A stretch of DNA of 37,992 nt, taken from Acidobacteriota bacterium (GTDB lineage Bacteria > Acidobacteriota > Vicinamibacteria > Vicinamibacterales > JAFNAJ01). The stretch spans positions 1 to 37,992 of the forward strand of contig JAHDVP010000048.1 of the NCBI GenBank assembly GCA_023384575.1, given 5' to 3'. Position numbers and translations under genes: made by a program. How positions within the stretch are numbered: the first letter of the stretch is position 1; each line of letters opens with the position of its first letter. The notes beneath the pieces were generated by a model. The model worked only from the letters and a program-made list of their open reading frames with translations. It was not told the origin of the DNA and did no database searches. Below are positions 10,027 to 37,798 of this stretch, in pieces.

Positions 10027-10027
10027 C

Positions 10028-12893: not shown

Positions 12894-12953
12894 CCCGGCA
12901 GCAGGGTCGAATCCGCAGGGCGCACGCATTTCATCGGCAAGGGGAGAGTCATC

Positions 12954-14119: not shown

Positions 14120-14189
14120 GATCCGTCAGCGGGGTCCGCGGCGGGAGTCGCCGGACCTCATTCCGAATTCCGGCCCGGGCATATCTCCA

Positions 14190-14708: not shown

Positions 14709-14720
14709 CGGAGTCCACAC

Positions 14721-15989: not shown

Positions 15990-15991
15990 CC

Positions 15992-18725: not shown

Positions 18726-18844
18726 GTGCGCCATTGCGCCAGAGACGAACGTATCTGGCATCACATCTCACGGCAATCAGCCGAAGCTGCGCGGTGATCC
18801 CGCGCGCTTGTGGCTCCCGGACGGCGCGTTCGTCATCCGGGCCC

Positions 18845-19006
18845 ATGACGGCCCCCATCAGCGAAGCGCTGAGTCCGAACGAAAGCCATGGCTACGACAA
18901 GCGTCATCCGCAAGGGCATGGCCTGGAAGGGTTGACGTCGGAATGGATCGGGAGGAAAGTGATTTCCTTTCCACCCGACCGTCCGATGGCGGCACAAAGA
19001 AGGTGA
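18845..19006 (+). CDS. Possible 53-residue protein before the DsrE-like gene
   Basis: A short frame starting at ATG 18845 and ending three bases before the GTG of the DsrE-like gene; the ribosome site of that gene lies inside its last codons. The predicted product is polar (contains SHGYDKRHPQGHGLEG) and matches nothing I know. It has no clear ribosome site of its own. It is listed because of the close coupling. Otherwise the 284 bases between 18726 and 19009 show no gene. Confidence 0.3.
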   Translation: MTAPISEALSPNESHGYDKRHPQGHGLEGLTSEWIGRKVISFPPDRPMAAQRR

Positions 19007-19009
19007 GGC

Positions 19010-19402
19010 GTGGCTGCGAAACCGCTCAGCATCATCGTCGTGTCAGGGTCGAGAGAGCGCCTTCAGATGGCCGCGATGGTCGCGGCAGTCGGGGCAGTGA
19101 GCGGCAGTCCGGTCACGGTGTTCCTGTCGATGAACGCGTTGCGGTACTTCGTGAAGGGCGACCAGACCGCGGCCCCCGCCGAGGGGCCGTTCGGCGAACT
19201 GCTCGCCACGAAGAACGCGCCGCCGTTCCGCGCCATGTTCGAGCAGGCCGTGTCGCTGGGCGATGCGAAGATCCATCCGTGCTCGATGGCCATGGACGTC
19301 ATGGGGCTGGAGCCCGCCGCGCTCGAATCGTGGCTGGCCGAACCTCTCGGCCTCACGAAGTTTCTCGGCGATGCGGCCGATGCGCAGGTCTGGTCGTTCT
19401 GA
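19010..19402 (+). CDS. DsrE/DsrE2-like sulfur-handling protein
   Basis: 130 residues starting at GTG with AAGGTGAG upstream. The fold pattern ([26 protein letters not shown], then [16 protein letters not shown]) and a single conserved-position Cys91 in [11 protein letters not shown] are typical of the DsrE/DrsE2 family, small cytoplasmic proteins that carry persulfide sulfur. A TusA-like gene and an SQR-like flavoprotein follow in the same direction, a combination used in sulfane sulfur trafficking. Confidence 0.8.
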
Positions 19403-19453
19403 CCTCCGCCGCCGGACAACGCCGAACAACGTCGAACACAGAAGGGAGCAGCC

Positions 19454-19684
19454 ATGGCCGGCAAGAAAGTGATCGACGCGCGCGGAAGCTTCTGTCCGGG
19501 CCCGTTGATGGAACTCATCGCCGGGATGAAGATGGCCGAGGTGGGCGACGAGCTCGAAGTGCTCTCCAGCGACAAGGGGTCGGCCAACGACATTCCCGAG
19601 TGGATCCACAAGGTCGGGCACGAGCACCTCGGCACGCGCGAGGAGGCCGGTGTCTGGCACATCGCAGTCAGGAAGGTGAAGTGA
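19454..19684 (+). CDS. tusA: TusA-family sulfurtransferase
   Basis: 76 residues with the CPGP motif (Cys14-Pro17) at the start of the first helix, the signature of TusA/SirA proteins. Cys14 carries sulfur as a persulfide. Being between DsrE-like and SQR-like genes, it is more likely a sulfur relay for oxidation or detoxification than the tRNA-thiolation TusA. A GGGAG ribosome site lies upstream of the ATG. Confidence 0.88.
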   Translation: MAGKKVIDARGSFCPGPLMELIAGMKMAEVGDELEVLSSDKGSANDIPEWIHKVGHEHLGTREEAGVWHIAVRKVK

Positions 19685-19735
19685 AAGAGGTGGGCTGAAG
19701 CGACGTTTCGATCACGCACAACAGGAGGACGAGAG

Positions 19736-20869
19736 ATGCGCATCCTGATCATCGGCGGCGGCATGGGCGGCACGATCCTGGCGAACAATCTCGCGCGGCG
19801 GCTGGCGCCCGAGCTGAAGGCGGGCAAGGCCCGGATCACGATGCTGTCGGCATCCGAGCGGCACTTCTACCAGCCGGGCCTTCTGTATCTGGCGTTCGGG
19901 CGCGTGACGCCCGACGAGCTGTACCGCGACCAGGCGAGCCTGCTCGAGCCCGGCATCGAGTTCCACGTCGACCCGGCCGAGCAGTTCCTGCTCGACCAGA
20001 ACCAGGTGAAGGCGAAGAGCGGGCGCACCTTCGATTACGACATCCTGGCGATCGCCACCGGGTCGCGCCCGGTGCCCGAACTGATCCCCGGCCTGGCCGA
20101 GAATTCGGAGACGTTCTACACCGAGGAGACGGCGCTGAAGATGTTCCGGCGCCTGCGCGAGTTCCAGGGCGGCCGGGTTGTCGTCGCGGTGGGCGTGCCG
20201 CACAAGTGCCCGATGGCGCCGCTCGAGATCACCTTCATGCTGTACGACTACTTCAAGGATCGCGGCATCCTCGACAAGGTGAAGCTGCACTACACCTACC
20301 CGATCGGTCGCGTGCACAGTCTCGAGAACGTCGCCAAGTGGGCGGCGCCCGAAATGGCGCGGCTCGGCATCAGCTACGAGACGCTGTTCAACATCAAGGA
20401 GGTCGACGGCAAGGCGAAGGTGGTGCGCAGCGAGGAGGGCACCGAAGCGCCGTTCGACCTGCTGGTGTCGATCCCCGCGCACCGCGGCATGGAGGTGATC
20501 GAGAAGAACAACCTCGGCACCGGCGGGTTCATCCCGACGCATCGGCACCAGCTCAACATGGAAGGGCGCAACAACGTCTACGTGCTGGGCGACACGACCA
20601 ACCTGCCGATCAGCAAGGCCGGTTCCACCGCGCACTTCGAGGCCGAGGCGCTCGGCGAGAACATCGCGGCGATCGTCAAGCTCGGCGCGCCGGTGCGCGA
20701 CTACGACGGCAAGGTGTTCTGCTTCATCGAGGCCGGAAAAGACCGCGCCACCTACGCGATGTTCGACTATCTCAATCCGCCCGACCCGAAGCCGCCGACC
20801 AAGGCCATCCACTGGTTCAAGATGGCCTACAACAAGCTGTACTGGACTTCCGCACGCGGCCTGCTCTGA
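19736..20869 (+). CDS. Sulfide:quinone oxidoreductase-like FAD flavoprotein
   Basis: 377 residues of the disulfide-reductase flavoprotein fold: FAD-binding GGGMGG (7-12), the YQPGLLYLAFG segment, ATGSRPVP (107-114) and a late VLGDTTNLPISKAGSTAHFEA segment. Cys158 in PHKCPMAP sits at a redox-cysteine position of sulfide:quinone oxidoreductases; Cys329 may be the partner. The C-terminal region (KAIHWFKMAYNKLYW) is amphipathic and could bind the membrane. It likely oxidises sulfide or a persulfide and reduces quinone, passing sulfur to TusA/DsrE. Quinone or another acceptor is not decided by sequence. Confidence 0.82.
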   Translation: MRILIIGGGMGGTILANNLARRLAPELKAGKARITMLSASERHFYQPGLLYLAFGRVTPDELYRDQASLLEPGIEFHVDPAEQFLLDQNQVKAKSGRTFDYDILAIATGSRPVPELIPGLAENSETFYTEETALKMFRRLREFQGGRVVVAVGVPHKCPMAPLEITFMLYDYFKDRGILDKVKLHYTYPIGRVHSLENVAKWAAPEMARLGISYETLFNIKEVDGKAKVVRSEEGTEAPFDLLVSIPAHRGMEVIEKNNLGTGGFIPTHRHQLNMEGRNNVYVLGDTTNLPISKAGSTAHFEAEALGENIAAIVKLGAPVRDYDGKVFCFIEAGKDRATYAMFDYLNPPDPKPPTKAIHWFKMAYNKLYWTSARGLL

Positions 20870-24129: not shown

Positions 24130-25002
24130 TTACGCTACGCCGAGCTCCTCGCCGTTCGTGAGGGTGTCTGCCGCCGCGTGCCGGGCATGGCCGGCACGGC
24201 GCGACGGGCGGACCTCGCTGTCGGGCTGGCGTACTTTCACTAGCTGGGACAATACGCCAACCGCGATCTCGGCCGGCGTGTTGTTCCCCACCTTGTCACC
24301 GAGCGGACACGCGATGCGCTCGATGAAGCTTTGTGTCGCGCCCTCTTGCGCGAGTTCGCGGCGCATGATCGCAGCCTTGGTCTTGCTGCCGAGCACCCCC
24401 ACGTAGTGTAGCGGCGCCGATCGCCGTGCGAGCGCGGCGAGGATCGGCAGATCGGTGGCGTGTCCCATCGTCATCACCAGGACACTCGTGCCGTCGCGCA
24501 CTTCGTCCAGGCCCTCGGTGTAGCAAGCCACCAGGCGGCGTGCGAGCCGCTCGCTCTCCGGCAGGCGCGCGAGCCACTCCTCGCGGGTGTCGACGCACAC
24601 GGTGTGGCAGTCCAGTTCGACGAGGAAACGACACAACTTCTGCGCGACGTGACCGGCACCGAAAATCAGGACGTCCCAGCGATCGCGTGGGCGGTGGACT
24701 TCGTAGTAGAGCGCGACCTCTCCGGCACAGGTCATGCCGATGTCGCGATGCAGGTTCAGGCGTTCGAACCGGGTCCGTTCCGTGGCTGGCGCTGACAACA
24801 ATGCGCGGGCCGCTTCGGTGCATCGAAGCTCCACGCGTCCGCCCCCGATCGTGCCGAACAGCAACCCGTCTTCGCCGAAGACCGCGCTGGCGCCGACGAC
24901 TTGCGGGATGCTGCCTTTGGCATCGACGATGGTGACCGTGCAATAGGCCGTGCCCTCCTTCTGCAGCTTGCTCAGGAGAGTGATGAACGCGATGTCGTGC
25001 AT
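24130..25002 (-). CDS. xdhC: XdhC/CoxI-family molybdenum cofactor maturation protein
   Basis: 290 residues. The start at 25002 is preceded by AGGAGA eight bases upstream; the frame continues upstream but lacks support. The N-terminal XdhC_CoxI domain has DAKGSIPQVVGASAVF, GTIGGGRVE and MTCAGEVALYYEV; the C-terminal Rossmann domain has VLIFGAGHVAQKL and a late GSKTKAAIMR segment. XdhC binds Mo cofactor and helps install its terminal sulfido ligand in xanthine-dehydrogenase-family enzymes. It is divergent from the Mo hydroxylase genes that begin at 25358 and shares their control region. Confidence 0.9.
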   Translation of the reverse strand: MHDIAFITLLSKLQKEGTAYCTVTIVDAKGSIPQVVGASAVFGEDGLLFGTIGGGRVELRCTEAARALLSAPATERTRFERLNLHRDIGMTCAGEVALYYEVHRPRDRWDVLIFGAGHVAQKLCRFLVELDCHTVCVDTREEWLARLPESERLARRLVACYTEGLDEVRDGTSVLVMTMGHATDLPILAALARRSAPLHYVGVLGSKTKAAIMRRELAQEGATQSFIERIACPLGDKVGNNTPAEIAVGVLSQLVKVRQPDSEVRPSRRAGHARHAAADTLTNGEELGVA

Positions 25003-25067
25003 GCCTCGCTTCTCCTGTGAGGGCGCCTGCGAAGGATCGTCCGTTCGCACGGGAAATTCGGATCGAT

Positions 25068-25090
25068 AGTAGTTTGAACGCCAAACTACT
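25068..25090. promoter_or_regulatory. Inverted repeat, candidate operator near xdhC
   Basis: AGTAGTTTG and CAAACTACT are perfect 9-bp inverted arms around AACGC, 65 bases upstream of xdhC. The core TAGTTTG-N5-CAAACTA recurs at 25257-25279. Dyads of this size suit a dimeric MarR or TetR regulator; the MarR gene at the end of this cluster is the natural candidate. Confidence 0.6.
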
Positions 25091-25256
25091 TTCATCGCAG
25101 AGGCGTGTCAAGGCGCGCTTCGCTGTCGGCGAGATCGGTCGGAAGGACTCTTCGATTCATCACTGCCGCGCAGGTCATGCATCGGCTGCCGTATGCCCGC
25201 TGAACGGTGACGCTCGATAACACAAACGGGTTATTGCCGCTCACAAACCGGTCATC

Positions 25257-25279
25257 GATAGTTCGTTTACCAAACTATC
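25257..25279. promoter_or_regulatory. Second copy of the inverted repeat, near the Mo hydroxylase operon
   Basis: GATAGTTCG and CAAACTATC are 9-bp inverted arms with one mismatch around TTTAC. They lie 189 bases from the first copy and about 79 bases before the Mo hydroxylase start codon. CAAAC also appears at 25223 and 25244, 21 bases apart. The 355-base intergenic region holds no RNA gene that I can see. Confidence 0.55.
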
Positions 25280-25286
25280 TGGCGTC

Positions 25287-25361
25287 ATGGAGCAGTTCGA
25301 TCTCGTTCCCGACATCTGGCGCGTCAATCCACCGGTCCTGGTCGACGGAGACCCAGCATGA
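25287..25361 (+). CDS. Possible 24-codon leader frame overlapping the hydroxylase start
   Basis: ATG at 25287 opens a 24-codon frame whose TGA overlaps the ATG of the FAD subunit (ATGA at 25358-25361). It has no ribosome site and begins eight bases after the operator-like repeat, so if used it may be a leaderless message. The short peptide has no recognisable domain. It may be chance, or a translationally coupled leader. Confidence 0.3.
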   Translation: MEQFDLVPDIWRVNPPVLVDGDPA

Positions 25362-26362
25362 TCCTGTATGAATTCGACTACGAGCAGCCGACGACTCTCG
25401 AGGAGGCGGTCGTCCAACTGAGGGCACTTGGCTCGTCCGCAGCCATCGCCGCTGGCGGAACCGACTTGCTGCCGAACATGCGTATCGAGGTCGTCCGGCC
25501 CTCGACGGTCGTGAGCCTTGGCGCGATCGATCCGGTGGCACCGGCTCGCCAACCCGACGGCGCCATCAGGATCGACGCGCTCACTCGCCTCGCGGCCATC
25601 GAGGAGTCGGCGCTGCTGCGCGCAGCGTTGCCCATGCTGGTCCAGGCCGCCAGCGCCGTAGGCAGCAACCAGATCCGGCAGATGGGAACGCTGGGCGGCA
25701 ATCTGTGCCAGGACACGCGCTGCCTCTGGTTCAACCAGAAGCACGACTATCAGTTCAAGGTTCCGTGCTACAAGCGCGGCGGTGACCTTTGCTACCCGTT
25801 TCCGACCAATCGCCCCGGCGTGTGCTGGTCGGTTCACATGTCCGACACCGCGCCGGCATTGATGGCGCTGAACGCACAGGTCGACATCCTCGGCGAGTCG
25901 GGGGCGCGGCGGATCGATCTCGAGAACCTGTACACCGGTGACGGCATCACGCCGGTCAATCTGACCGACGGCGAGATCATCGTGGCGATCGTCGTTCCGT
26001 CGCCCGCGCAGCGCACCGGGTGGGGCTACTGCAAGTCCGCACGTCGTGGCGGACTGGAGTTCGGGATTTCGGTCATGGCGGTCTCGGTCACCGCTACCGT
26101 TGATGGCCGGTGCAGTGCCGCGCGCATCTTCGTCAATGCGATCCGGGAGCGGCCGACCCGGCTGGTAGAGACCGAGCAGGCGCTCCTGGGGGCCTCGCTG
26201 GACGAAGCGACAGAGGCGCGCATTGCGGCCGTGGCTGCCAAGGAGATCAATCCGCTGCCGCATCACGGTTTCACGAAGAGCCACATCCGCGACGATTTCC
26301 GGATCAAGATCCGTCGTGCCTTGGGTGCAGCGTTCGCACGCACGCGCGACAACGTCAATTGA
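25358..26362 (+). CDS. hcrB: FAD and [4Fe-4S] subunit of a 4-hydroxybenzoyl-CoA-reductase-type Mo hydroxylase
   Basis: 334 residues. The FAD-binding domain shows AIAAGGTDLLPNMR (29-42) and GSNQIRQMGTLGGNL (102-116). Unlike most CoxM/XDH flavin subunits it carries a cysteine-rich insertion with Cys122, Cys137, Cys145 and Cys156 (Cys117 nearby). This matches the extra [4Fe-4S] loop of HcrB in 4-hydroxybenzoyl-CoA reductase, where the cluster passes electrons inward so that the enzyme works as a reductase. GGAG precedes the ATG by eight bases. It is the first of three subunit genes. Substrate assignment rests on this insertion and the neighbouring CoA ligase. Confidence 0.8.
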   Translation: MILYEFDYEQPTTLEEAVVQLRALGSSAAIAAGGTDLLPNMRIEVVRPSTVVSLGAIDPVAPARQPDGAIRIDALTRLAAIEESALLRAALPMLVQAASAVGSNQIRQMGTLGGNLCQDTRCLWFNQKHDYQFKVPCYKRGGDLCYPFPTNRPGVCWSVHMSDTAPALMALNAQVDILGESGARRIDLENLYTGDGITPVNLTDGEIIVAIVVPSPAQRTGWGYCKSARRGGLEFGISVMAVSVTATVDGRCSAARIFVNAIRERPTRLVETEQALLGASLDEATEARIAAVAAKEINPLPHHGFTKSHIRDDFRIKIRRALGAAFARTRDNVN

Positions 26363-26375
26363 AGGAGCCGCTGCC

Positions 26376-26894
26376 ATGCTCAAGAGGGTGATGCAGAAGA
26401 TCAAGGTGGCACGACCGAGGATCGTCGAGCTGTGCGTCAACGGTGCCTCGCGTTACGTGTCGGTGCAGCCGCGCAATTTCCTCGTGGACGTGTTGCGGGA
26501 AACGCTGGGGTTGACTGGGACGAAGGCCGGTTGCGAGCAGGGAACCTGCGGCGCGTGCACGGTGCTGGTCGACGGGCGCCCCGTGTTGTCATGTCTCACC
26601 CTCGCGGCGGATTGCGAGGGCAAGGATATCCGCACGGTCGAGAGCCTGATGGAAGGCGGGAACATGAGCAGTATCCAGAAGGCGTTCCTCGACCAGGGAG
26701 CGGTGCAATGCGGCTTCTGCACCCCGGGAATGCTGATGTCGATCACTGCGCTGCTCGAGAGCAACCCCAAGCCGTCGGTCCCGGAAATCAAGAAGGCGCT
26801 CGAGGGCAATCTGTGCCGCTGTACCGGATACAACAAGATCATGGCCGCCGTGCTGCAGGCGTCCGACCAGGGCGTTACGCCCCTCATGAAATAG
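26376..26894 (+). CDS. hcrC: [2Fe-2S] small subunit of the Mo hydroxylase
   Basis: 172 residues; ATG preceded by GAAGGAG. The plant-ferredoxin-type cluster is bound by Cys53, Cys58, Cys61 and Cys73 (GCEQGTCGACTV, then LSC), the second by Cys112, Cys115, Cys147 and Cys149 (CGFCTPGM, NLCRCTGY). This is the standard electron-transfer subunit of the xanthine oxidase family. It lies 13 bases after the flavin subunit and 25 bases before the Mo subunit. Confidence 0.9.
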   Translation: MLKRVMQKIKVARPRIVELCVNGASRYVSVQPRNFLVDVLRETLGLTGTKAGCEQGTCGACTVLVDGRPVLSCLTLAADCEGKDIRTVESLMEGGNMSSIQKAFLDQGAVQCGFCTPGMLMSITALLESNPKPSVPEIKKALEGNLCRCTGYNKIMAAVLQASDQGVTPLMK

Positions 26895-26919
26895 CCATCT
26901 GGCTCTCGGAGTCGCTCTC

Positions 26920-29301
26920 ATGGATCAATTGAGGTACGTCGGCAAGAGCTACGCCCGCAGGGACGGCCCTGACAAGGTCACGGGCCGCGCCATGTATACG
27001 CAGGACGTCAAGCTGCCGGGAACCCTGGTCGGAAGGGTCCTGCGCAGCCCGCACGCTCACGCGCGCATCGTCCGTATCGACACGTCCAGGGCGCGGGCGC
27101 TCCCGGGCGTGAAAGGCGTCATCACGATCGACGACAGCAAGGGCATCAAGCACGGGTTCGTCGAGACGCCGCGCTATCCGCCCGACCAGGAGGTCCTGGC
27201 GCGCGAGCGGGTTCGTCATGTGGGCGAGGAGATTGCCGCAGTGGCGGCCACCGACGAAGTCATTGCCCAGCGGGCGATCGATCTGATCGAGATCGAGTAC
27301 GAAGTGCTGCCCGCCGTGTTCGACCCCTTCGAGGCGATGGCGCCCGGCGCGCCGGAAATCCATCCCAGCCATCCGAAAGTCAGGAGCGAGGTGCCCTACT
27401 CGAATATCGGTGGGCGCACGGCGACCGGTTGGGGTGACGTGAGCAAGGGCTTCGAGGAGGCGGACTACGTTCGGGAGGACCGCTTCGAGAGCCATCTGCG
27501 CACGCACGGCTATCTCGAACCCCAAGTGACGCTTGCCCATTGGGAGAGCGGCAAGCTGAACGTCTGGACCTCGTCGATGGGCGCCTTCGTCAAGCGCGCC
27601 AAACTGGCGCGGGTGCTGGATCTGCCCTATTCCGCGGTGCGCGTGCACAAGGCATATGTCGGCGGTACGTTCGGCGGCAAGATCGACCTGTATTCGCACG
27701 AATACTGTGCCGCTCGCCTTTCGATGCTCACCGGGTTGCCGGTGAGGATCGTTGCCACGCGTGAGGAGATCTTCTCGGCGTACCGGCACGGCCAACCGCT
27801 GGTGATGGAGGTCAAGACCGGGGTGCGCAAGGACGGGACGATCGTTGCCCAGCAGGTCCGGACGATCAACAACTCGGGCGCCTATCGGGGCAGTGGCGTC
27901 GTGGTGATCTTCCTCGGCTGGGGATTCACCATGCTTCCGTACCGGATACCGAATCTTGCCTACGAAGGGTTGTCGGTCTACACGAACAACCCGGTGCGCG
28001 CCCCGCAGCGTGGCCACGGTTGCCCGCAGATCCGCTTCGCGATCGAAGCGCAACTGGATCACATCGCCGAGGACCTCGGAATCGATCCGGTGACCATCCG
28101 ACTGCGCAATGCCCGTCGGCCATGGGAGGAGCTTCCCAACGGTGACAACGTCCACGAGGCGGGGTTGATCGAATGCATCAAGGTGGCCGCCGAGAAGTCC
28201 GGTTTTTCCGCCAAGTACGGGCGCGGCCGCAATGAAAAGCAGACGCTGCGCCGTGGCATCGGTATGGGAGTCAGCTCGTATTTCGGTGGCTCCCTGATCT
28301 ACCCGAACGGCTCCGGCGTGATCGTCAAGATGGCTGATGACGGTTCAGTGACGGTGCTCACCGGGGCGATCGACGTGGGGCAGGGTTCGGAGACCGTGAT
28401 CTCGCAGATCGTGGCTGAGGAGTTGTCCTTGCCGATGGAGGACGTGAAGATCATCTCGTCCGACACCGATACGACACCCCAGGACATCGGTGCGTGGATC
28501 AGCGGGATGACCTACGTGACCGGCAACGCGGCCCGGCAAGCCGCCGGGAACGCGCGCAACAAGATGCTGGAACTGGTGGCCGAGCGATTCGAGTGCCCGG
28601 TCGAGCATCTGCGTGTGAGCGACAAGGCCGTCTATCACTATCTGGATCGGGATCGCAGGATGTCCTACCAGGAGATCATTGCGCTCAGCGTGGCCACCAG
28701 GCGCGGCGACACCATCATCGGCGAGGGCTTCTGGCGGACCATGCGCGACGAGCCGGCCCATCCGAGCCTGGCCTCGACCAAGGGGCGTTGGAGCGAGAAC
28801 TACGCATTCAGTTGCCAGGTGGCCGAAGTCGAAGTCGATACCGAGACCGGCGAGGTGCGGCTCACCCGTGCCGTCACGGTTCACGACTGCGGCTTCCCGA
28901 TGAATCCGGCACTCGTGAGCGGACAGGTCGACGGGCAGGTTTCGATGGCGCTCGGACACGCGTTTCTCGAGGAAGTGATGATGAAGGACGGATACACGCT
29001 GAATCCGACCTGGCTCGACTACCGGATGCCGACCATCCACGAGATAGCCGAATCGGAAGACGCGGAAGTCATCACCGAGCAGTACACGGTTGGCAAGGCA
29101 TTTCGGGTGAAGGAGGTCGGCGAGGGGCTCGTCTCGGGGATTCTCGCCGCGATCGCCAATGCGGTATACGACGCGACCGGCGTGCGGATGTACTCGACGC
29201 CGTTCTCTCCAGAGAAGATCCTCAGGGGGTTGCGCCACCTGCAGCGTGAGTCTCGCGAGAAGGCGGCGACGAAGCAGGCCGGCGAGGGCGTGACAATCTA
29301 G
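26920..29301 (+). CDS. hcrA: Molybdopterin large subunit of the 4-hydroxybenzoyl-CoA-reductase-type hydroxylase
   Basis: 793 residues of the xanthine oxidase family Mo subunit. The N-terminal domain opens with GPDKVTGRAMYTQDV, the Mo-binding part has GGTFGGK (248-254) and RAPQRGHG, then DVGQGSET, and the catalytic glutamate is probably Glu735 in KEVGEGLVSG. Length and order fit HcrA/CoxL-type subunits. With its partners it should remove a phenolic hydroxyl from a hydroxybenzoyl-CoA, or hydroxylate a related ring. Cofactor maturation genes flank the operon (xdhC divergent, yqeB/yqeC downstream). The exact substrate is not readable. Confidence 0.88.
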   Translation: MDQLRYVGKSYARRDGPDKVTGRAMYTQDVKLPGTLVGRVLRSPHAHARIVRIDTSRARALPGVKGVITIDDSKGIKHGFVETPRYPPDQEVLARERVRHVGEEIAAVAATDEVIAQRAIDLIEIEYEVLPAVFDPFEAMAPGAPEIHPSHPKVRSEVPYSNIGGRTATGWGDVSKGFEEADYVREDRFESHLRTHGYLEPQVTLAHWESGKLNVWTSSMGAFVKRAKLARVLDLPYSAVRVHKAYVGGTFGGKIDLYSHEYCAARLSMLTGLPVRIVATREEIFSAYRHGQPLVMEVKTGVRKDGTIVAQQVRTINNSGAYRGSGVVVIFLGWGFTMLPYRIPNLAYEGLSVYTNNPVRAPQRGHGCPQIRFAIEAQLDHIAEDLGIDPVTIRLRNARRPWEELPNGDNVHEAGLIECIKVAAEKSGFSAKYGRGRNEKQTLRRGIGMGVSSYFGGSLIYPNGSGVIVKMADDGSVTVLTGAIDVGQGSETVISQIVAEELSLPMEDVKIISSDTDTTPQDIGAWISGMTYVTGNAARQAAGNARNKMLELVAERFECPVEHLRVSDKAVYHYLDRDRRMSYQEIIALSVATRRGDTIIGEGFWRTMRDEPAHPSLASTKGRWSENYAFSCQVAEVEVDTETGEVRLTRAVTVHDCGFPMNPALVSGQVDGQVSMALGHAFLEEVMMKDGYTLNPTWLDYRMPTIHEIAESEDAEVITEQYTVGKAFRVKEVGEGLVSGILAAIANAVYDATGVRMYSTPFSPEKILRGLRHLQRESREKAATKQAGEGVTI

Positions 29302-29329
29302 CGGAACCGGCGGATTGAAATCGGGCTTC

Positions 29330-30157
29330 GTGAGCAAGGTCACTCCCGCGATCGACCCGGTCGTGCTGATCCGCAGTGCCGGGGAGATGGCGAGCGGGAT
29401 CGCGTGGTGCCTGTACATGGCGAACCTGCGGCGTATCTGCATGGTCGACCTCGACATGCCGTTGTGCGTCCGACGCACGGTCGCGTTCTGTACGGCCCTC
29501 GGGAGCGGATCGGCGAGCGTCGAGGGCGTTCACGCGATCGCCGCCCGTTCCGGGGAGGACATTCTTGCGGCGTGGCGCGATGGGTACCTTGCCGTGATGC
29601 GGGTGAGCGACTGGCAGGCCGTGCAGCAGATCCGACCGGCGGTGGTCGTCGACGCGATCATCGCCAAGCGCAACATCGCGACGCGAATCGCCGACGCGCC
29701 GCTGGTGATCGGGCTGGGGCCGGGATTCGTCGCCGGCAGTGACTGCCACCTGGTCGTCGAGACCCATCGTGGCCATCATCTGGCGCGTATCCTCGAGCGA
29801 GGAAGTGCTCAGCCCAACACCGGCACGCCCGGAGACATCGCAGGATTCACCGCCGAGCGGGTATTGCGGGCGCCGCGCGACGGGTGCTTCGAAACCCGAC
29901 ACGTCATCGGCGATCGTGTCTCGAAGGGGGAGGTCGTCGGCTCGGTCGAGGGTGTCACGATTACTGCAGGCATCGATGGGATCGTCCGCGGCCTGATTGG
30001 ATCCGGAACGGTCGTCACGGCCAGGCTGAAACTCGGGGACATCGATCCTCGCGGCAGCATCGAGCATTGCCACACGATCTCCGACAAGGCGCGGGCCCTC
30101 GGTGGCGCCGTGCTCGAAGCCATCATGCGCCACGCCAACCGGGGCCTCGCCGCGTGA
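29330..30157 (+). CDS. yqeB: YqeB (EF2563-type) maturation protein for selenium-dependent Mo hydroxylases
   Basis: About 275 residues with the family N-terminus VVLIRSAGEMASGIAWCLYMANLRRICMVD-like pattern (Rossmann start), the DARI-like VVDAIIAKRN segment, GLGPGF, and a C-terminal biotinyl-like hammerhead (GVTITAGIDGIVRGLIGSG). YqeB is one of the marker proteins of selenium-dependent molybdenum hydroxylase systems. The start is uncertain: GTG 29330 is chosen, and a TTG at 29315 is also possible. Its stop overlaps the GTG of yqeC. Its presence beside an Hcr-type enzyme is unusual. Confidence 0.78.
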   Translation: MSKVTPAIDPVVLIRSAGEMASGIAWCLYMANLRRICMVDLDMPLCVRRTVAFCTALGSGSASVEGVHAIAARSGEDILAAWRDGYLAVMRVSDWQAVQQIRPAVVVDAIIAKRNIATRIADAPLVIGLGPGFVAGSDCHLVVETHRGHHLARILERGSAQPNTGTPGDIAGFTAERVLRAPRDGCFETRHVIGDRVSKGEVVGSVEGVTITAGIDGIVRGLIGSGTVVTARLKLGDIDPRGSIEHCHTISDKARALGGAVLEAIMRHANRGLAA

Positions 30158-30933
30158 ATCTGCCCTCGAACATGACCTTGGCGAGTTCCCGGGTCATCGC
30201 CCTTTGCGGGGGCGGTGGCAAGACGTCGTTGATGCTCGCGCTCGCCGCGGCGTTCGCGGCGCAGGGTGAGAAGGTTCTGGTGACCACTACGACACGGATG
30301 GCTGTCGACGAGATGGCCGATCTCCCGGCCTCGGCCGAAGTCGTGGACGCCTCGGGTGTCGGCGCGCTGGCGGGCCATTCGCGCACCCCGGTCATGGCGT
30401 ATCACCACGTCGATGCGGTTTCGGGCAAGGTGATCGGTTATCCGCCCGCGACCATCGACCAGTTGAGCGCGATGGGCGTCTTCGACCGGGTGCTCGTCGA
30501 GGCCGATGGTTCGGCTCGTCGGCCGCTCAAGGCACCCGCCTCCCACGAACCGGTATTCCCGGCAAGCGTTGACGCGGTGGTGATGGTGGCCGGGGCGAGC
30601 GGACTGGGCCGCCCGCTGGACGATCAGAGTGTGTTTCGTGCCGGGTTGTGGTCGCGACGGACCGGAGTCGCCATCGGCGATACGGTCACTCCAGAATCGC
30701 TGGCGGCAATGGTCGTGCATCCGCAGGGGCTCGCCCAGGGCGCGCCACAGGGTGTGCGGCGCGTGCTGTTCGTCAACCAGTGTGACGAAGTGGCGGACCT
30801 CGCGGCGGCGATGCGGGTGATCGCGAGCCTGCGCGAGCGGGTCGCCACACCGCCGCACTGCGCGGTTCTCGGTCGCCTGAAACCGGACACACAGGTTCTT
30901 CATCGCACCTGCTTCGAGGAGCTTGCCGAATGA
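30154..30933 (+). CDS. yqeC: YqeC-type putative selenium-hydroxylase accessory protein
   Basis: About 259 residues from a GTG overlapping the yqeB stop (GTGA); ATG 30172 is an alternative. It has a P-loop-like CGGGGKTS near the N-terminus, VTTTTRM, a conserved DRVLVEADGSARRPLKAPASHEPVFP-type region and a late FVNQ-like NKxD segment, typical of YqeC. The family is a presumed NTPase partner of YqeB in maturation of Mo hydroxylases with a labile selenium ligand. MocA is not in the window; XdhC is. Confidence 0.8.
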   Translation: MNLPSNMTLASSRVIALCGGGGKTSLMLALAAAFAAQGEKVLVTTTTRMAVDEMADLPASAEVVDASGVGALAGHSRTPVMAYHHVDAVSGKVIGYPPATIDQLSAMGVFDRVLVEADGSARRPLKAPASHEPVFPASVDAVVMVAGASGLGRPLDDQSVFRAGLWSRRTGVAIGDTVTPESLAAMVVHPQGLAQGAPQGVRRVLFVNQCDEVADLAAAMRVIASLRERVATPPHCAVLGRLKPDTQVLHRTCFEELAE

Positions 30934-30948
30934 TGCGAAGGAGCCCCG

Positions 30949-32541
30949 ATGCCCGGTGAAGCCATCGATTGCACCAGTCGGCTCAACGCGACGGACCTGA
31001 TTCTCGGGCCCGCCCTTGCGGACGGACGCCATCAGGACACCGCACTTGTGTGTGGCGAGACGGCGGTCGCGTTCGGCGAACTGGACAGTTGGTGCAATCG
31101 CGTCTCGAATGCGCTGGCCGCGCGAACCACGGTGGGCGATCGTGTCCTGATGCTGCTCAAGGACAGCCCGTTGTTCGTGGCCGCGTTTCTCGGCATCATG
31201 CGTGGCGGTCGCGTTGCCGTGCCGCTGAATACGCGACTCGCGCCGCGCGATCTGGCCTATGTTCTGCAGCACAGCGAAGCGGCGGCGGTGCTCGTCGACG
31301 CGGACTTCCTGCCCGTCTATCGGGAAGCGACCGCGATCGCGTCATGGTCGCCTGCGCACGTGGCCGTGCACCGACTGGCCGGCGCCGGGTTCGACTCGCT
31401 CGACCAATGGATCGATGGCGAGACGCCGCATGCCGAGAGTCGTGCGATGAGCGCCGACGAGATGGCTTTCTGGTTGTATTCCTCCGGAACGACCGGGACC
31501 CCGAAGGCGGTGATCCACACCCACGGTTGCGTGAGCGCAGGCGACGCCTACATGCGTGCATTGGGGCTGGCCCCCGGTGAACGCGTATTCGCCTCGTCGA
31601 AGCTGTTCTTTGCCTTCGCGCTTGGCCACACCGTCCTCGGAGGCTTGCGCGCCGGGGCCACGGTCATCCTGTGCCAGGACTGGCCCGATCCGGCCAGGGT
31701 CGCCGACATCGTGGAGCGTCATCGCCCGAGCGTCATGCTCAGTGTGCCCACGATGCTCAGGAACCTGCTGCGCGACGGTTTCGCCGACCGTGCCGGCTTT
31801 CGCTCGGTCCGGATCTATCTGTCGGCTGGGGAGGCGTTGCCGGCCGGACTGTACGAGCGATGGCTGGCACAGACCGGCGTTCCAGTCATCGAGGGAATCG
31901 GTGCCAGCGAGACGATCTTCATGTTCATTTCCGGGATGCTTGCGGACCACCGTCCGGGCGCGACCGGAAAGCCGGTCTCGTATGCGCAGGTCAGGCTTCT
32001 CGACCGCTTCGACCGGCCGATCACGGATCCCGATGTGCCCGGAACCGCGTGGGTGAAGATGCCTTCGCTGTGTCGGGGCTACTGGAAGGAACCCGAGAAG
32101 ACCCTGGCCGCGTTTCGTGATGAATGGTTCTGCACCGGCGACACGTTCAGCGTCGACTCCGACGGCTGGTGGTATCACCAGGGGCGCAGCGACGATCTGC
32201 TGAAGATCTCCGGTCAATGGGTGAGTCCAGCGGAGATCGAACAGGTCGCGACCGCAGTGCCGGGGGTTCTGGAAGCGGCTGTGGTCGGTGTCGAGAACAG
32301 CGACGGACTCGTCAGGATGACGCTGTTCGTGGTCACGGCCGCCGACATCCCGGAAGGTACGCTGGCGCGAACCCGGTTGAAGGAAGCCATCACACAGACC
32401 CTGAGTTCGACCCTGTCGATCTACAAGTGCCCGCGCGACATCCGGTTCATCGAGGAGGTTCCGCGCACGGCGACCGGAAAGGCGCAGCGCTTCCTGCTGC
32501 GACGCGTTGCGCTGCAGGAAAACGCGCGGTGCGAAACGTAA
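30949..32541 (+). CDS. Benzoate-CoA-ligase-type acyl-CoA synthetase
   Basis: 530 residues of the ANL superfamily, a length typical of benzoate- and hydroxybenzoate-CoA ligases. The P-loop is YSSGTTGTPKAV (about 177), followed by FFAFALGHT, SAGEALPAG, EGIGASE and the hinge GRSDDLLKISGQWVSPAEIE; the catalytic lysine is in RTATGKAQR near the C-terminus. It activates an aromatic acid with ATP and CoA. Placed between the Hcr-type hydroxylase and a Liv-type importer, it likely makes the CoA ester reduced by the hydroxylase. AAGGAG precedes the ATG. Confidence 0.87.
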   Translation: MPGEAIDCTSRLNATDLILGPALADGRHQDTALVCGETAVAFGELDSWCNRVSNALAARTTVGDRVLMLLKDSPLFVAAFLGIMRGGRVAVPLNTRLAPRDLAYVLQHSEAAAVLVDADFLPVYREATAIASWSPAHVAVHRLAGAGFDSLDQWIDGETPHAESRAMSADEMAFWLYSSGTTGTPKAVIHTHGCVSAGDAYMRALGLAPGERVFASSKLFFAFALGHTVLGGLRAGATVILCQDWPDPARVADIVERHRPSVMLSVPTMLRNLLRDGFADRAGFRSVRIYLSAGEALPAGLYERWLAQTGVPVIEGIGASETIFMFISGMLADHRPGATGKPVSYAQVRLLDRFDRPITDPDVPGTAWVKMPSLCRGYWKEPEKTLAAFRDEWFCTGDTFSVDSDGWWYHQGRSDDLLKISGQWVSPAEIEQVATAVPGVLEAAVVGVENSDGLVRMTLFVVTAADIPEGTLARTRLKEAITQTLSSTLSIYKCPRDIRFIEEVPRTATGKAQRFLLRRVALQENARCET

Positions 32542-32567: not shown

Positions 32568-33740
32568 ATGGGCTTCATCAGGAGTCTTCTCGGATTGACC
32601 GCCGCGGGGGTTTCCGCGTTTGCTCTTGCGCAGGCCCCTCTGAAGATCGGGGTTATCGCGGAGATGACCGGGGCGCAGGCCGAATACGGTCTGCAGATAA
32701 CCAACGGCATCAAGCTGTATCTGAGCGAGCACGGCGACACCGTGGCCGGTCGCAAGATCGAACTCGTGATCAAGGACGTCGGCGGCCCGAATCCGGAAGT
32801 CGCCAAGCGGATCGCACGGGAGTTGATCGCGCGTGACAAGGTCGAGGTCCTGGCCGGGTTCGGATTCAGCCCGAATGCGCTGGCGGTCGCGCCGATCGCG
32901 ACCGAAGCGCAGGTGCCGATGGTCGTGATGAACGCTGCGACGTCGATTATCCCGTTGCGCTCGCCGTACATCATTCGCACTTCGTTCACGCTGGCGCAGG
33001 GCGCGATGGGCATCGCGAAATGGGCCGCGAAGAACGACCTCAAGCGCGTCTTCATCCTGTACGCCGACTACGCGCCGGGTAACGACGCGAAGAACCAGTT
33101 CCGCAAGACGTTCGTGGAGGCCGGTGGCGAGATCCTCGGCGAGATCGGGGTTCCGTTGAAGAACCCGGAGTTCGGTCCGTACATGGAGCGCGTGAAGGAC
33201 GCCAGGCCGGACGCGGTGTTCATGTGGTTCCCGTCGGGTGAACTGGCGACCGCCCTGGTCCGGGCCTTCCGCGAGCGTGGCCTGGAAAAGGCCGGCATCA
33301 AACCTTTGGGCACCGGCGATGCCGTCGACGACATGTTCGTCAATTCGATGGGAGAAGCGGCGCTCGGCCTGATCACGGCGTCGCATTATTCGATCGCACA
33401 TGACTCGCCGAAGAACAAGGCCTTCGTGGCCAGATACCAGAATCTGTTCGGTACGACCATTCGGCCGAACTTCATGGCGGTGGGTGGTTACGACGGCATG
33501 GCCGTGATTCACGGCGCGCTGAAGCAACTCGGCAACTCGTTCGGTGGCGAGCGCGCCGTTGCAGCCATGAAGGCGATGAAATTCGAGAGCCCGCGCGGCC
33601 CGATCTCATTCGACAACGACCGCGACGTGGTCCAGGACATCTACATCCGGAAGGTCGAGCGGCGTGGCGGCGAACTCTACAGCATCGAATTCGACAAGCT
33701 GCCGAACGTCAAGGATCCGGGCAAGGAGTCCTCGAAATAG
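32568..33740 (+). CDS. livK: ABC transporter substrate-binding protein, LivK/aromatic-acid type
   Basis: 390 residues with a Sec signal peptide cleaved near ALAQ (residues 20-23) and the type I periplasmic-binding fold (LKIGVIAEMTG, YGLQITNGIKLYL). The sequence NAATSIIPLRSPYIIRTSF is usual for HAAT-family proteins that bind aromatic acids as well as branched amino acids. It leads the transport genes livHMGF. Hydroxybenzoate-type ligands are inferred from neighbours. Confidence 0.88.
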   Translation: MGFIRSLLGLTAAGVSAFALAQAPLKIGVIAEMTGAQAEYGLQITNGIKLYLSEHGDTVAGRKIELVIKDVGGPNPEVAKRIARELIARDKVEVLAGFGFSPNALAVAPIATEAQVPMVVMNAATSIIPLRSPYIIRTSFTLAQGAMGIAKWAAKNDLKRVFILYADYAPGNDAKNQFRKTFVEAGGEILGEIGVPLKNPEFGPYMERVKDARPDAVFMWFPSGELATALVRAFRERGLEKAGIKPLGTGDAVDDMFVNSMGEAALGLITASHYSIAHDSPKNKAFVARYQNLFGTTIRPNFMAVGGYDGMAVIHGALKQLGNSFGGERAVAAMKAMKFESPRGPISFDNDRDVVQDIYIRKVERRGGELYSIEFDKLPNVKDPGKESSK

Positions 33741-33862: not shown

Positions 33863-34732
33863 ATGGTGAGCGTACTGTTCGATGGGCTGGCCTACGGCAT
33901 GCTCCTGTTCCTGATGGCCGTCGGTCTTTCGATCACCATGGGCCTGATGAATTTCGTCAACCTGGCTCACGGCGTGTTCGCGATGGTCGGCGGTTACGTG
34001 GCGATCCTGGCCATGAACGGCGCCGGTCTGGGTTTCGGCGTGGCGCTGCTGCTCGCCTTTGCTGCTGCCGCGGCGGCCGGCGCGATCATGGAGATCCTGT
34101 TCTTTCGCCGGCTCTTCACTGCCCACGCCCTGGACCAGGTGTTGGTGACGGTCGGCGTGGTCTTCGTCGCGGTCGCGGTGGCGACCTATTTCTTCGGCCC
34201 GACGATGCAACTGTTCCAGCCGCCGGAATATCTGGAAGGCCGGTGGCGATTGGCGGGCTTCGAAGTGCCCCGCTATCGCCTCTTCCTGATCGTCGCTGGG
34301 CTGCTGGTACTCGGTGGCTTGGGGTTGATCCTCAACCGCACCCGCCTGGGTGCAATGGTGCGTGCCACGGTCGACAACCGGCGGGTTGCGCAGGGTACGG
34401 GGATCGACGTCCAGCGCCTGTTCTTCCTGGTCTTCTCGTTCGCCTGCGGGATCGCGGGGCTCGGAGGCGCATTGAGCCTGGGCATGCTCAGTCTCGAGCC
34501 GTCGTATCCATTGAAGTACATGGTCGAGTTCCTGATCGTTGTCAGCGTGGGTGGGGCGGGCACGATCATCGGGCCGTTCGTCGCCGCACTGATGGTGGGT
34601 CTGGTCGACGTGGCCGGAAAGTACTATCTCCCGGAGACCGGAACCTTTCTCGTCTACGTTGTCATGATCGTGGGACTGCTGCTGCGTCCGTACGGTCTGG
34701 TTCCGCGTCCGGGGCTGGTCGTATGGCGGTAG
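33863..34732 (+). CDS. livH: ABC transporter permease, LivH type
   Basis: 289 residues, about eight membrane helices, with the LivH start LFDGLAYGMLLFLMAVGLSITMGLMNFVNLAHG and a late VSVGGAGTIIGPFVAALMVG segment. It is separated from livK by 122 bases with no clear gene, and overlaps livM by 10 bases. With LivM it makes the transmembrane channel. Confidence 0.92.
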   Translation: MVSVLFDGLAYGMLLFLMAVGLSITMGLMNFVNLAHGVFAMVGGYVAILAMNGAGLGFGVALLLAFAAAAAAGAIMEILFFRRLFTAHALDQVLVTVGVVFVAVAVATYFFGPTMQLFQPPEYLEGRWRLAGFEVPRYRLFLIVAGLLVLGGLGLILNRTRLGAMVRATVDNRRVAQGTGIDVQRLFFLVFSFACGIAGLGGALSLGMLSLEPSYPLKYMVEFLIVVSVGGAGTIIGPFVAALMVGLVDVAGKYYLPETGTFLVYVVMIVGLLLRPYGLVPRPGLVVWR

Positions 34733-35682
34733 TGACCTTGTCCCGACGGCAGGCGCGCGCGCTGGAAGTGCTTTTCTGGCTGGCGATCGCGAGTTGCTTC
34801 TTCGTCCTGCCGTTACGGCTCTCGTTGCTCAGCCAGATACTGATCTTCGGCCTGTTCGCCGTCTCGCTCGACATCGCGTTGGGGTATGCCGGCATCCTGA
34901 CGGTCGGCCACGCCGCGTTCTTCGGTTCGGGCGCATATGCGGCCGGGCTGCTCGCACGGCACGGGTGGGGCGAGCCGTTCTCGGGTCTTCTTCTGGCGTT
35001 CGCCGTGTGCGCGCTGCTCGGTTGGCTGCTCAGCTTCCTGGTCGTGCGCGGAACGGATCTCACGCGGCTGATGATCACCGTCGGTATCTGCGTCCTGCTC
35101 GGCGAGTCGGCCAACCAGTTGACCGGCCTCACCGGCGGTGCGGACGGACTGCAAGGGGTCGAGATGTGGCCCGTGCTCGGCCTGTTCGGCTTTGATCTGT
35201 ATGGGAAGACCGCCTTCGTCTACAGCCTGGTGGTGGTGTTCGGCGTGTTCATGCTTGTACGGCGCATTCTGGGTTCACCTTTCGGTCTGGCGCTGAGAGG
35301 GATCCACGATAGCCCCAAGAGGATGCTCGCGATCGGATCACCGGTCGGCTCGCGCCTGCGCATGGCGTACACGATCTCGGCCGGAGGCGCCGGGATTGCG
35401 GGCGCGTTACTGGCCCAGACCTCGCAGTTCGTGGGCATCGGAACACTCAGCTTCGACCGCTCGGCCGAGGTGTTGATCATCCTCGTCCTGGGTGGAACCG
35501 GGCGCCTTTACGGAGGGCTCGTCGGCGCGCTGGTCTACATGCTCGTGCATGAAGTGTTTTCCGATCTCGACCCGAAATTCTGGATGTTCTGGCTCGGGGC
35601 GTTCCTGATTGCCGTGGTCACAATCGGGCGTGGCGGAATTCTGGGCTGGTGTTCGCGTCTCGTCATGGTGCAGCGCAGATGA
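34723..35682 (+). CDS. livM: ABC transporter permease, LivM type
   Basis: 319 residues; the ATG at 34723 lies inside the end of livH and gives the normal N-terminus. Family segments ALGYAGILTVGHAAFFGSGAY and LGGTGRLYGGLVGA are present, with about eight to ten helices. Its stop overlaps the livG ATG (ATGA), so translation is coupled. Confidence 0.92.
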   Translation: MAVVTLSRRQARALEVLFWLAIASCFFVLPLRLSLLSQILIFGLFAVSLDIALGYAGILTVGHAAFFGSGAYAAGLLARHGWGEPFSGLLLAFAVCALLGWLLSFLVVRGTDLTRLMITVGICVLLGESANQLTGLTGGADGLQGVEMWPVLGLFGFDLYGKTAFVYSLVVVFGVFMLVRRILGSPFGLALRGIHDSPKRMLAIGSPVGSRLRMAYTISAGGAGIAGALLAQTSQFVGIGTLSFDRSAEVLIILVLGGTGRLYGGLVGALVYMLVHEVFSDLDPKFWMFWLGAFLIAVVTIGRGGILGWCSRLVMVQRR

Positions 35683-36473
35683 GGCCGATGGAAGCTGTGG
35701 CGCTGTCGGCGCGCTCGCCGAGGTCGTTGCCGACCTTGAGGGCGGATGGCGTGTCGGTCCGCTTCGGAGCTTTCCTGCCTGTGAGCGACGTGACGCTTCA
35801 TCTCGACGTGGGTGCGCGGCAGGCACTGGTGGGGCCCAATGGGGCAGGCAAGACGACGCTGATCAACCTGCTGACCGGCGTGCTGCGGCCGACTTCGGGA
35901 ACCATTCACATCGGCGGCCAGAACGTCACGTCGTGGTCGTCCGATCGTCGGGCACGCCTGGGCCTGGCACGGACCTTCCAGATCAACACACTGTTTCCCA
36001 ACCTCACCGTGCTCGAGTCGACCGTGCTGGCGATTGCCGAACGGCGCGGCGACGGTCGTGTGTGGTGGCGCTCGATCGACAGCCAGACGGCGCTGCGCGA
36101 CGAGGCGTTCCAACTGCTGTCGGGACTCGGTCTGGATGTGCTCGCCAATACCTGCGTACGGGCGTTATCGTACGGAAAACAGCGATTGATGGAGATCACC
36201 CTCGCGCTTGCGGCACGACCCGCCATCCTGCTGCTCGACGAACCGGCCGCCGGAGTCCCGGAGGGCGAGCGCGAAGAACTGTTCGAGGCCATCGACTCGC
36301 TTCCCGCCGATATCAGCGTGCTGTTCATCGAACACGACATGGATCTCGTGTTCCGCTTCGCGCGCCGCATATCGGTTCTCGTCGGAGGCACGATGCTGAC
36401 CGAGGGCACTCCCGAGGAGGTCGCTGCCGACAGCCGTGTGCGCGAGGTCTATCTCGGGGACGGCGATGACTGA
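35679..36473 (+). CDS. livG: ABC transporter ATPase, LivG type
   Basis: 264 residues from ATG 35679 (ATGA overlap with livM). Walker A GPNGAGKTT, Q-loop in FQINTLFPNLTV, a signature region SYGKQRLMEIT (degenerate from LSGGQ), and Walker B ILLLDEPAAGV. The altered signature SYGKQ is normal in LivG. It powers uptake with LivF. Confidence 0.92.
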   Translation: MRPMEAVALSARSPRSLPTLRADGVSVRFGAFLPVSDVTLHLDVGARQALVGPNGAGKTTLINLLTGVLRPTSGTIHIGGQNVTSWSSDRRARLGLARTFQINTLFPNLTVLESTVLAIAERRGDGRVWWRSIDSQTALRDEAFQLLSGLGLDVLANTCVRALSYGKQRLMEITLALAARPAILLLDEPAAGVPEGEREELFEAIDSLPADISVLFIEHDMDLVFRFARRISVLVGGTMLTEGTPEEVAADSRVREVYLGDGDD

Positions 36474-37296
36474 TCTGCTCCAGGTCGAACACGTCACGGC
36501 CGGCTATGGCGACGCCGTGGTCCTGCGGGACCTGTGCGTCAGCGTGGGGCAGGGGCAGAGCCTGGCCGTTCTGGGCCGCAATGGCGTCGGCAAGACGACT
36601 CTGCTCGAGACCATCATGGGGAATGCACGGGTGGTGCGCGGGCGGATCGCCTTCAACGGACGGGACCTGACGCATTGGCCGCCACATCACCGCGTGCGCG
36701 CCGGGATCGGGTGGGTTCCACAGGAGCGCGAAGTCTTTCCGTCGCTGACCGTGATGGAAAACCTGTTGGTCGTTGCGCGCCCCGGCCCATGGGATGTGCG
36801 TCGCATCTTTTCGTTGTTTCCGCGCCTGTCCGAGCGCGCCGGGAACTACGGCAACCAGTTGTCCGGAGGCGAGCAGCAGATGCTCGCGATCGGGCGTGCC
36901 CTGATGACCAATCCCAGACTCCTGCTGCTCGACGAGCCGATGGAGGGTCTCGCGCCGATCATCGTTGCCGAGCTGGCAGCGGCAATCAATGTGATGCGCG
37001 AGCAGGAAGGATTGCCGTCGATCATCGTCGAGCAGCGACCGGTGGTCGCGCTGTCGATGGCCCGACAGGTGGCCATCCTCGAACGCGGTGCGGTCGTCCA
37101 CCATGGGCCGAGCGCGGAACTGGCGGCCGACGCGGAGTTGCTCGCCCGTCTGCTCGGGATCGGCAGCCGGCAACGCAGTCCGAGGCTGGCCCTGGTCAAG
37201 GCCTCGAAGGATTCGACAGCGCTCGACAGTGCCGGGCAAGAGGCCGGCGAACATGCACAATCCGATGATCCGCCCCGGGGCCGCATGGCCGGATGA
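36466..37296 (+). CDS. livF: ABC transporter ATPase, LivF type
   Basis: 276 residues from ATG 36466, overlapping the livG end by eight bases. Walker A GRNGVGKTT, Q-loop VPQEREVFPSLTV, signature LSGGEQQML, and Walker B LLLLDEPMEGLAP. The C-terminal tail is about 40 residues longer than usual and overlaps the MarR gene by 44 bases in another frame. Confidence 0.92.
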   Translation: MTDLLQVEHVTAGYGDAVVLRDLCVSVGQGQSLAVLGRNGVGKTTLLETIMGNARVVRGRIAFNGRDLTHWPPHHRVRAGIGWVPQEREVFPSLTVMENLLVVARPGPWDVRRIFSLFPRLSERAGNYGNQLSGGEQQMLAIGRALMTNPRLLLLDEPMEGLAPIIVAELAAAINVMREQEGLPSIIVEQRPVVALSMARQVAILERGAVVHHGPSAELAADAELLARLLGIGSRQRSPRLALVKASKDSTALDSAGQEAGEHAQSDDPPRGRMAG

Positions 37297-37798
37297 CGTG
37301 AACCTGGACGAGGCCGGAGCATCTGCGTCACTCCTCGAGGACGGCCCGATCCCGGCGCGGGAGGCCGCCATTGATCTGGACCTGTTGCCGGGTCTGCTCG
37401 GCTATCAGATCCGGCAGGCACAGGCCGCCCTGTTCCGCGACTTCGCGGTGATTACGGAGCGCCTGAATGTCACCCCCGGCGAGTTCAGCATCCTGACGCT
37501 TATCAAGGCCAATCCGGGGGTGAGCCAGAGCCGCTTCGCTTCCATGTATCGGGTGGACAAGTCGACCCTTTCCCTGAGCATCAGTGGACTGGTGAAGCGT
37601 TCCCTGGTCTATCGGACGCGAGTGCACGTCGACAATCGGTTCCACGCGCTGTGGCTCACGGAGGCCGGGGGCGAATTGCTGCTTCGGGTGACCGAACAGG
37701 TCAACGTCCAGGAACGCAAGATGGACGCGGTATTGCATCCCGGCGAACGGGATCAGCTCCTCGACATGTTGGCGCGCATCGCGCAGGCGCTGCACTGA
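37253..37798 (+). CDS. MarR-family transcriptional regulator
   Basis: 181 residues from ATG 37253, with AGAGG about nine bases upstream and overlapping livF. After a 40-residue leader, the MarR fold shows the winged helix FSILTLIKANPGVSQSRFASMYRVDKSTLSLSISGLVKRSLVYR and the wing RVHVDNRFHALWLTEAG. MarR proteins are frequent regulators of aromatic catabolism (for example BadR) and respond to CoA thioesters or acids. It is the last gene of the hydroxylase/ligase/importer cluster, and the paired inverted repeats near 25070 and 25260 are its likely targets. Confidence 0.9.
   Translation: MHNPMIRPGAAWPDDVNLDEAGASASLLEDGPIPAREAAIDLDLLPGLLGYQIRQAQAALFRDFAVITERLNVTPGEFSILTLIKANPGVSQSRFASMYRVDKSTLSLSISGLVKRSLVYRTRVHVDNRFHALWLTEAGGELLLRVTEQVNVQERKMDAVLHPGERDQLLDMLARIAQALH

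Follow-up and report, generated by a model that had tools for sequence, protein, structure and literature searches.

A molybdenum enzyme with linked selenium-cofactor genes in a putative aryl-CoA operon, related to 4-hydroxybenzoyl-CoA reductase

The window analyzed here, a 37,992-nucleotide stretch of DNA (contig JAHDVP010000048.1 of the Acidobacteriota assembly GCA_023384575.1), encodes a three-subunit molybdenum (Mo) enzyme of the xanthine-oxidase family that probably acts on coenzyme A (CoA)-bound aromatic acids and whose active centre probably contains selenium. Based on sequence comparison, the enzyme belongs to a clade of predicted aryl-CoA molybdoenzymes that is akin to 4-hydroxybenzoyl-CoA reductase (Hcr) yet separate from it. 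Selenium is proposed for the active centre because selD occurs in the related clusters of bacteria that have no other visible use of selenium. The individual parts are of known kinds; the literature searched held no description of the combination that the genes suggest, in which a Mo enzyme with the selenium trait and the [4Fe-4S] architecture of Hcr belongs to an aryl-CoA operon.

The operon begins at position 25358 of the + strand with the genes for the flavin adenine dinucleotide (FAD) subunit (25358-26362), the subunit with two [2Fe-2S] clusters (26376-26894, ATG start at 26376), and the catalytic Mo (molybdopterin) subunit (26920-29301), followed by YqeB (29315-30157), YqeC (30154-30933), an aromatic acid-CoA ligase (30949-32541), a LivKHMGF-type transporter, and lastly a MarR-family regulator. 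From 25358 to the transporter, the genes share one direction and either overlap or are spaced 13-26 bases apart. The gene content and coordinates in the original prediction, drawn from the letters of this stretch, were recovered for every gene.

Relation of the enzyme to Hcr

The solved structures closest to the FAD subunit (PF00941, PF03450) and the Mo subunit (PF20256, PF02738, PF01315) are HcrB (1rm6_B, E 1.6e-40) and HcrA (1rm6_A, E 1e-121), respectively; the [2Fe-2S] subunit carries PF01799 and PF00111. As had been claimed from the sequence, the FAD subunit has the four-cysteine insertion of HcrB (25706-25825, + strand), with Cys122, Cys137, Cys145, and Cys156, the presumed [4Fe-4S] ligands, all aligned and invariant across the clade and authentic HcrB. 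The insertion is not specific to HcrB, because the PaoB-type flavin subunits at L008 and L009 (contigs C4 and C14 of the window's bin, G000) hold a four-cysteine insertion of their own (CQRPRCW), and it was dropped as a marker of Hcr when taken alone. None of the three subunits reached the Hcr equivalog cut-offs (TIGR03195, 193 of 404.55 bits for the FAD subunit; TIGR03193, 187.8 of 257.8 bits for the [2Fe-2S] subunit; TIGR03194, 628 of 994.55 bits for the Mo subunit). A tree with 100 Mo-subunit sequences, built with a quick method and carrying a long-branch warning, put the 17 subunits of the window type in one clade and Hcr in another (SH-aLRT 100 for each branch), with the catalytic subunit of the window falling outside the Hcr clade. 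On the curated cut-offs and the tree, the filing of the enzyme as Hcr was abandoned.

Genuine Hcr in the genomes of relatives provides an internal control. Three genomes that hold the window-type enzyme (G012, G014, and G015) each also possess a separate genuine Hcr, recognized by all three subunits above cut-off at locus L117, both tested subunits at L118, and HcrA in G015, with the order ligase-MarR-HcrC-HcrA-HcrB at L117 and L118. No homologue of YqeB, YqeC, XdhC, or SelD was present in the 12.7-19.5 kb of DNA flanking these three Hcr. Large subunits of the family number only two each in G012 and G014, with one more in G015, and across the 13 genomes examined Hcr exceeded its cut-off in eight. 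Since genuine Hcr occurs in the same genomes, the YqeB-linked enzyme is a paralogue beside Hcr rather than Hcr itself. The label Hcr-type, given to the enzyme in the family sense by the original prediction, did not survive the presence of genuine Hcr elsewhere in the same genomes, the position outside the Hcr clade, and the differing Mo site.

At the Mo site, where HcrA has the active-site residue Gln214, an alignment of 100 Mo-subunit rows (17 from the clade and 83 others, HcrA numbering) shows methionine in every clade row but in no other row, with glutamine in 67 of the 83; in the window this is Met220 (codon 27577-27579, + strand). The glutamine corresponds to Gln767 of xanthine oxidase, which forms a hydrogen bond to the apical oxo ligand of Mo. 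Further clade-wide changes that are rare or absent outside the clade are Arg524 to Gly, Gly720 to Arg, Pro703 to Ala, and Ala356 to Pro. HcrA Glu726, the catalytic glutamate, is retained as Glu735 of the window (codon 29122-29124, + strand). The change to methionine shows that the surroundings of the Mo, and perhaps the reaction too, are unlike those of Hcr. Met220 was also considered as a marker of selenium and was dropped, as other YqeB-linked enzymes (L033, L043, L050, and L074) keep glutamine at this position.

Selenium genes in the operon and in related loci

Both YqeB, a selenium-cofactor maturation protein (TIGR03309, 310.6 bits, cut-off 220; TTG start as listed), and YqeC (TIGR03172, 179.5 bits, cut-off 73.05; PF19842), a P-loop selenium-cofactor protein whose GTG start overlaps the stop of yqeB, score above cut-off within the operon, and their joint linkage to a Mo enzyme is one mark of the selenium-dependent molybdenum hydroxylase trait. 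An XdhC-family maturation factor (24130-25095, - strand) is transcribed divergently from the operon and narrowly missed the cut-off of TIGR02964 (156.1 against 161.6 bits), though both of its Pfam domains, PF13478 (XdhC_C) and PF02625 (XdhC_CoxI), pass.

When genome contigs were scanned using the Mo subunit as query, 17 orthologous loci (L016-L030, L047, and L057) emerged at 65-83% identity, below which identity falls steeply to ≤44%. These loci belong mainly to alpha- and betaproteobacterial metagenome bins and keep the order of flavin, 2Fe-2S, and Mo genes in the company of YqeB, YqeC, and XdhC. An XdhC homologue is present in most of the loci, a MocA/YgfJ homologue in eight, and a MarR gene usually adjoins the cluster. 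Among loci with ≥5 kb on either side, YqeB occurs in seven of seven from the clade and four of 29 others from the family, a difference (Fisher p 4e-5) that is only indicative because the rows are related; where clade loci have usable downstream DNA, YqeB and YqeC are each present in 12 of 14. One of the orthologous loci is directly preceded by a second, different xanthine-oxidase-family set (L022:4476-8345). Elsewhere in the family, in two Enterocloster-type xanthine-oxidase-family operons (L043:1195-3913 and L050:2608-5258), the Mo gene is preceded at 5-9 kb by SelD and YqeB; if an operon of this type encoded a urolithin dehydroxylase, that activity would become a candidate for selenium dependence.

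The original prediction had invoked selenium on the strength of YqeB and YqeC, a claim now supported by selD inside the loci of four relatives and by orphan selD in three genomes. selD lies within the orthologous locus in L026, L027, L028, and L029, immediately after XdhC in L027 and L029 (L027 SelD, 412 bits, cut-off 125), and is above cut-off in 16 of the 17 relatives' genomes. The selD-positive genomes G012 (Rhodospirillaceae LM-1), G014, and G015 have no selA, selB, or selU, so their selD is an orphan, the argument with which Haft and Self defined the selenium-dependent Mo hydroxylases (PMC2276186). Because the tree shows these three genomes to be closely related, they amount to one evolutionary case in three assemblies. 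G013 has a stand-alone selD in the locus and a second selD elsewhere, in a longer and probably fused frame, that adjoins a selU fragment.

The argument for selenium is carried by the relatives because the window contig (C48 of G000) does not resemble its own bin. Compared with 20 other contigs of G000, its GC content is low (65.6%, with 70.5% for the bin; 64.6-66.8% per 9.5 kb, while none of 37 of the bin's own pieces falls below 67.3%), and its tetranucleotide correlation is 0.57-0.73, where the bin's own pieces go no lower than 0.69 and have a median of 0.84. The contig is probably mis-binned or recently acquired, and because it is a compositional outlier, selD being present and benzoyl-CoA reductase absent in G000 should both be left out of the argument. 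A search for selD elsewhere in the genome, proposed with the original prediction as a check, finds the gene in the bin (L001, G000:C14:89153-90079; L002, G000:C50:30820-31734) and is nonetheless invalid, since the contig mismatches the bin in composition. selD is also common in the bin's class (143 of 193 genomes); all seven yqeB-positive genomes there have it, which is not significant alone. selD in G000 was dropped as proof on both grounds, composition and commonness. Of the G000 pair, one has an in-frame TGA and is likely a selenocysteine SelD, a form common in the class, and the other lies in a 773-residue frame that is probably a fusion.

Of the biological uses of selenium, its placement on Mo has been called the least understood, and in Clostridioides difficile a strain with yqeB deleted behaves on urate and xanthine as one lacking selD does (PMC11448449). 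In the predicted model of YqeB from the window (mean pLDDT 90.9), the N-terminal part is Rossmann-like and is joined to a barrel that resembles biotinyl carriers (Z ~10 over 62-73 residues when compared with biotin carrier domains), in agreement with the likeness to AccB reported in PMC11448449, and the modelled barrel seemingly lacks the biotin lysine motif. The single invariant cysteine of the YqeB family alignment is C252 of the window protein, which, speculatively, could be a selenium carrier.

CoA ligases, substrate, and neighbouring genes

That a benzoate-CoA-ligase-type gene follows, as first proposed, agrees with the score of the ligase at 30949-32541 (TIGR02262, 396.2 bits, cut-off 375.25). 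Its best named relative is the 3-hydroxybenzoate-CoA ligase HbdA (NF053567), at 641 bits, below the equivalog cut-off of 1000 bits, and from this ligase family the leading guess for the substrate of the window enzyme is 3-hydroxybenzoyl-CoA. CoA ligases are present in nearly all of the orthologous loci and are of two types, a PaaK-type directly 3' of the Mo gene in most loci and, at L016, at L017, and in the window, the benzoate/HbdA type following YqeC. As two types of ligase fill one role, we infer that the substrate is an aryl-CoA ester. The neighbouring genes at L017, L020, L021, and L057 gave no consistent hint of a substrate besides the CoA ligases. BcrB, a subunit of the class I benzoyl-CoA reductase, is above cut-off in 11 of 12 relatives' genomes, so that a product of the benzoyl-CoA type could be used. 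The ligases and BcrB together bear out the earlier assignment to aromatic CoA esters.

Downstream of the ligase, the transporter consists of a periplasmic substrate-binding protein of an ATP-binding cassette (ABC) transporter (32568-33740, + strand; PF13458) and, as open reading frames, permeases and ATPases of the LivHMGF type (33863-37296, + strand), with UrtB- and UrtE/LivF-like scores under the named cut-offs. The MarR-family regulator (37262-37798, + strand) has an approximate start. Upstream of the operon, 1638-20869 of the window holds a HisD-family dehydrogenase, a sulfolactaldehyde-reductase-like protein, a split transketolase, TRAP transporters, a DsrE-like protein, and a type III sulfide:quinone-reductase-like protein, a set that resembles organosulfonate use with sulfide handling.

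Proposed function, alternatives, and known systems

By a modest preference, we read the operon as serving the uptake of an aromatic acid, its activation with CoA, and the processing of the thioester, most likely reductively, by a Mo enzyme with selenium. The LivKHMGF-type transporter would import the acid and the ligase would convert it to the CoA thioester. SelD would supply selenophosphate, and YqeB and YqeC, with XdhC and a cytidylyltransferase, would put a labile selenium on the Mo where ordinary relatives have sulfur. Electrons would pass from the flavin subunit and the extra [4Fe-4S] cluster to the two [2Fe-2S] clusters and on to the Mo, and the most likely reaction would be the removal of a substituent, probably hydroxyl, from the aromatic ring of the CoA ester; the product would enter the benzoyl-CoA route. 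A bolder and rather doubtful extension is that the clade comprises selenium-dependent aryl-CoA reductases in which Mo-Se, with methionine beside the Mo, would remove a substituent that sulfur-type Hcr cannot (e.g., a meta-hydroxyl), and that in some hosts SelD, YqeB, and YqeC may serve this enzyme alone.

Several observations weigh against a reductive selenium enzyme. YqeB was not found in the L017 locus, the orphan-SelD evidence comes from a single lineage in which two of the three genomes are metagenome bins, and yqeC loss alone is silent in C. difficile, the gene being dispensable there (PMC11448449). No BcrB was detected in the window's bin, though the contig is probably foreign to that bin. 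Further, with Gln214 to Met, Arg524 to Gly, and Gly720 to Arg, the Mo site is sufficiently unlike Hcr that the reaction may not be dehydroxylation.

This last point is shared by the alternative taken most seriously, though judged unlikely, that the enzyme depends on selenium but hydroxylates an aromatic or heteroaromatic CoA thioester; it would then put oxygen into the ring and release electrons via the flavin subunit. The clade also lies outside Hcr in the tree, the xanthine-oxidase family mostly hydroxylates (PMC10420851, PMC12771579), and its known selenium-dependent members, nicotinate dehydrogenase and purine hydroxylase, do so as well. Against hydroxylation stand hosts whose class I benzoyl-CoA reductase suggests anaerobic, reductive aromatic metabolism, and the HcrB-type [4Fe-4S] insertion of the flavin subunit. 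In Hcr, this insertion is tied to inverted electron flow.

Likewise improbable is an ordinary sulfur-type aryl-CoA Mo enzyme that binds no selenium, with YqeB and YqeC acting in general maturation or for another enzyme. The dispensability of YqeC in C. difficile would suit it, as would the suggestion that either YqeB or YqeC, when it occurs by itself, may act independently of selenium (PMC5029168), but selD sits inside four of the relatives' loci and is an orphan in three genomes, where the other family enzymes are authentic Hcr (plus one in G015) and where the Hcr has neither YqeB nor YqeC as a neighbour. A normal 4-hydroxybenzoyl-CoA reductase that has diverged in sequence and lies beside selenium genes by chance would account for the nearest structures, the four-cysteine insertion, and the CoA ligase; it is very hard to credit given the three missed cut-offs, the separate clade, the clade-wide changes at the Mo site, and the genomes in which genuine Hcr coexists.

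The characterized enzymes with selenium on Mo act on purines or nicotinate and come from clostridia and related bacteria. An apparently selenium-dependent family in environmental, aromatic-degrading Proteobacteria would come with a built-in control in the form of the related, genuine Hcr that the cell also contains. In the orphan-SelD lineage, the roles of selD, yqeB, and yqeC could be tested free of side effects on selenocysteine or selenouridine. If the selenium-dependent reading is true, anaerobic aromatic degradation gains a selenium requirement. A literature search, weak in that subscription journals lay mostly outside it, returned nothing linking YqeB or a selenium cofactor to aromatic-CoA enzymes.

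Among known systems, the urolithin C dehydroxylase Ucdh of Enterocloster bolteae, reported as the second reductive dehydroxylase of the family (32.7% identity to 4-hydroxybenzoyl-CoA reductase; PMC12771579), is likewise a xanthine-oxidase-family relative of Hcr, but its substrate is urolithin C rather than a CoA ester, and the text of PMC12771579 mentions neither selenium nor YqeB. HcrABC of Thauera aromatica (1rm6) shares with the window type the three-subunit plan, the [4Fe-4S] cysteines of the flavin subunit, the Glu726 position, a CoA ligase and MarR gene close by, and hosts with class I benzoyl-CoA reductase. The window type differs in how its genes are arranged (FAD-FeS-Mo, where the Hcr loci inspected have FeS-Mo-FAD), in having methionine for Gln214, and in its linkage to YqeB, YqeC, XdhC, and at times SelD. 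With the selenium-dependent Mo hydroxylases (Eubacterium barkeri nicotinate dehydrogenase and the clostridial purine hydroxylase and xanthine dehydrogenase; PMC2276186), the window type has in common the superfamily, the accessory set of YqeB, YqeC, YgfJ, XdhC, and SelD, and an orphan SelD in some genomes. Whereas the known members use purines or nicotinate and are mostly from Firmicutes, the window type occurs in Proteobacteria, in what appears to be an aromatic acid-CoA setting, and with a flavin subunit predicted to bear a [4Fe-4S] cluster.

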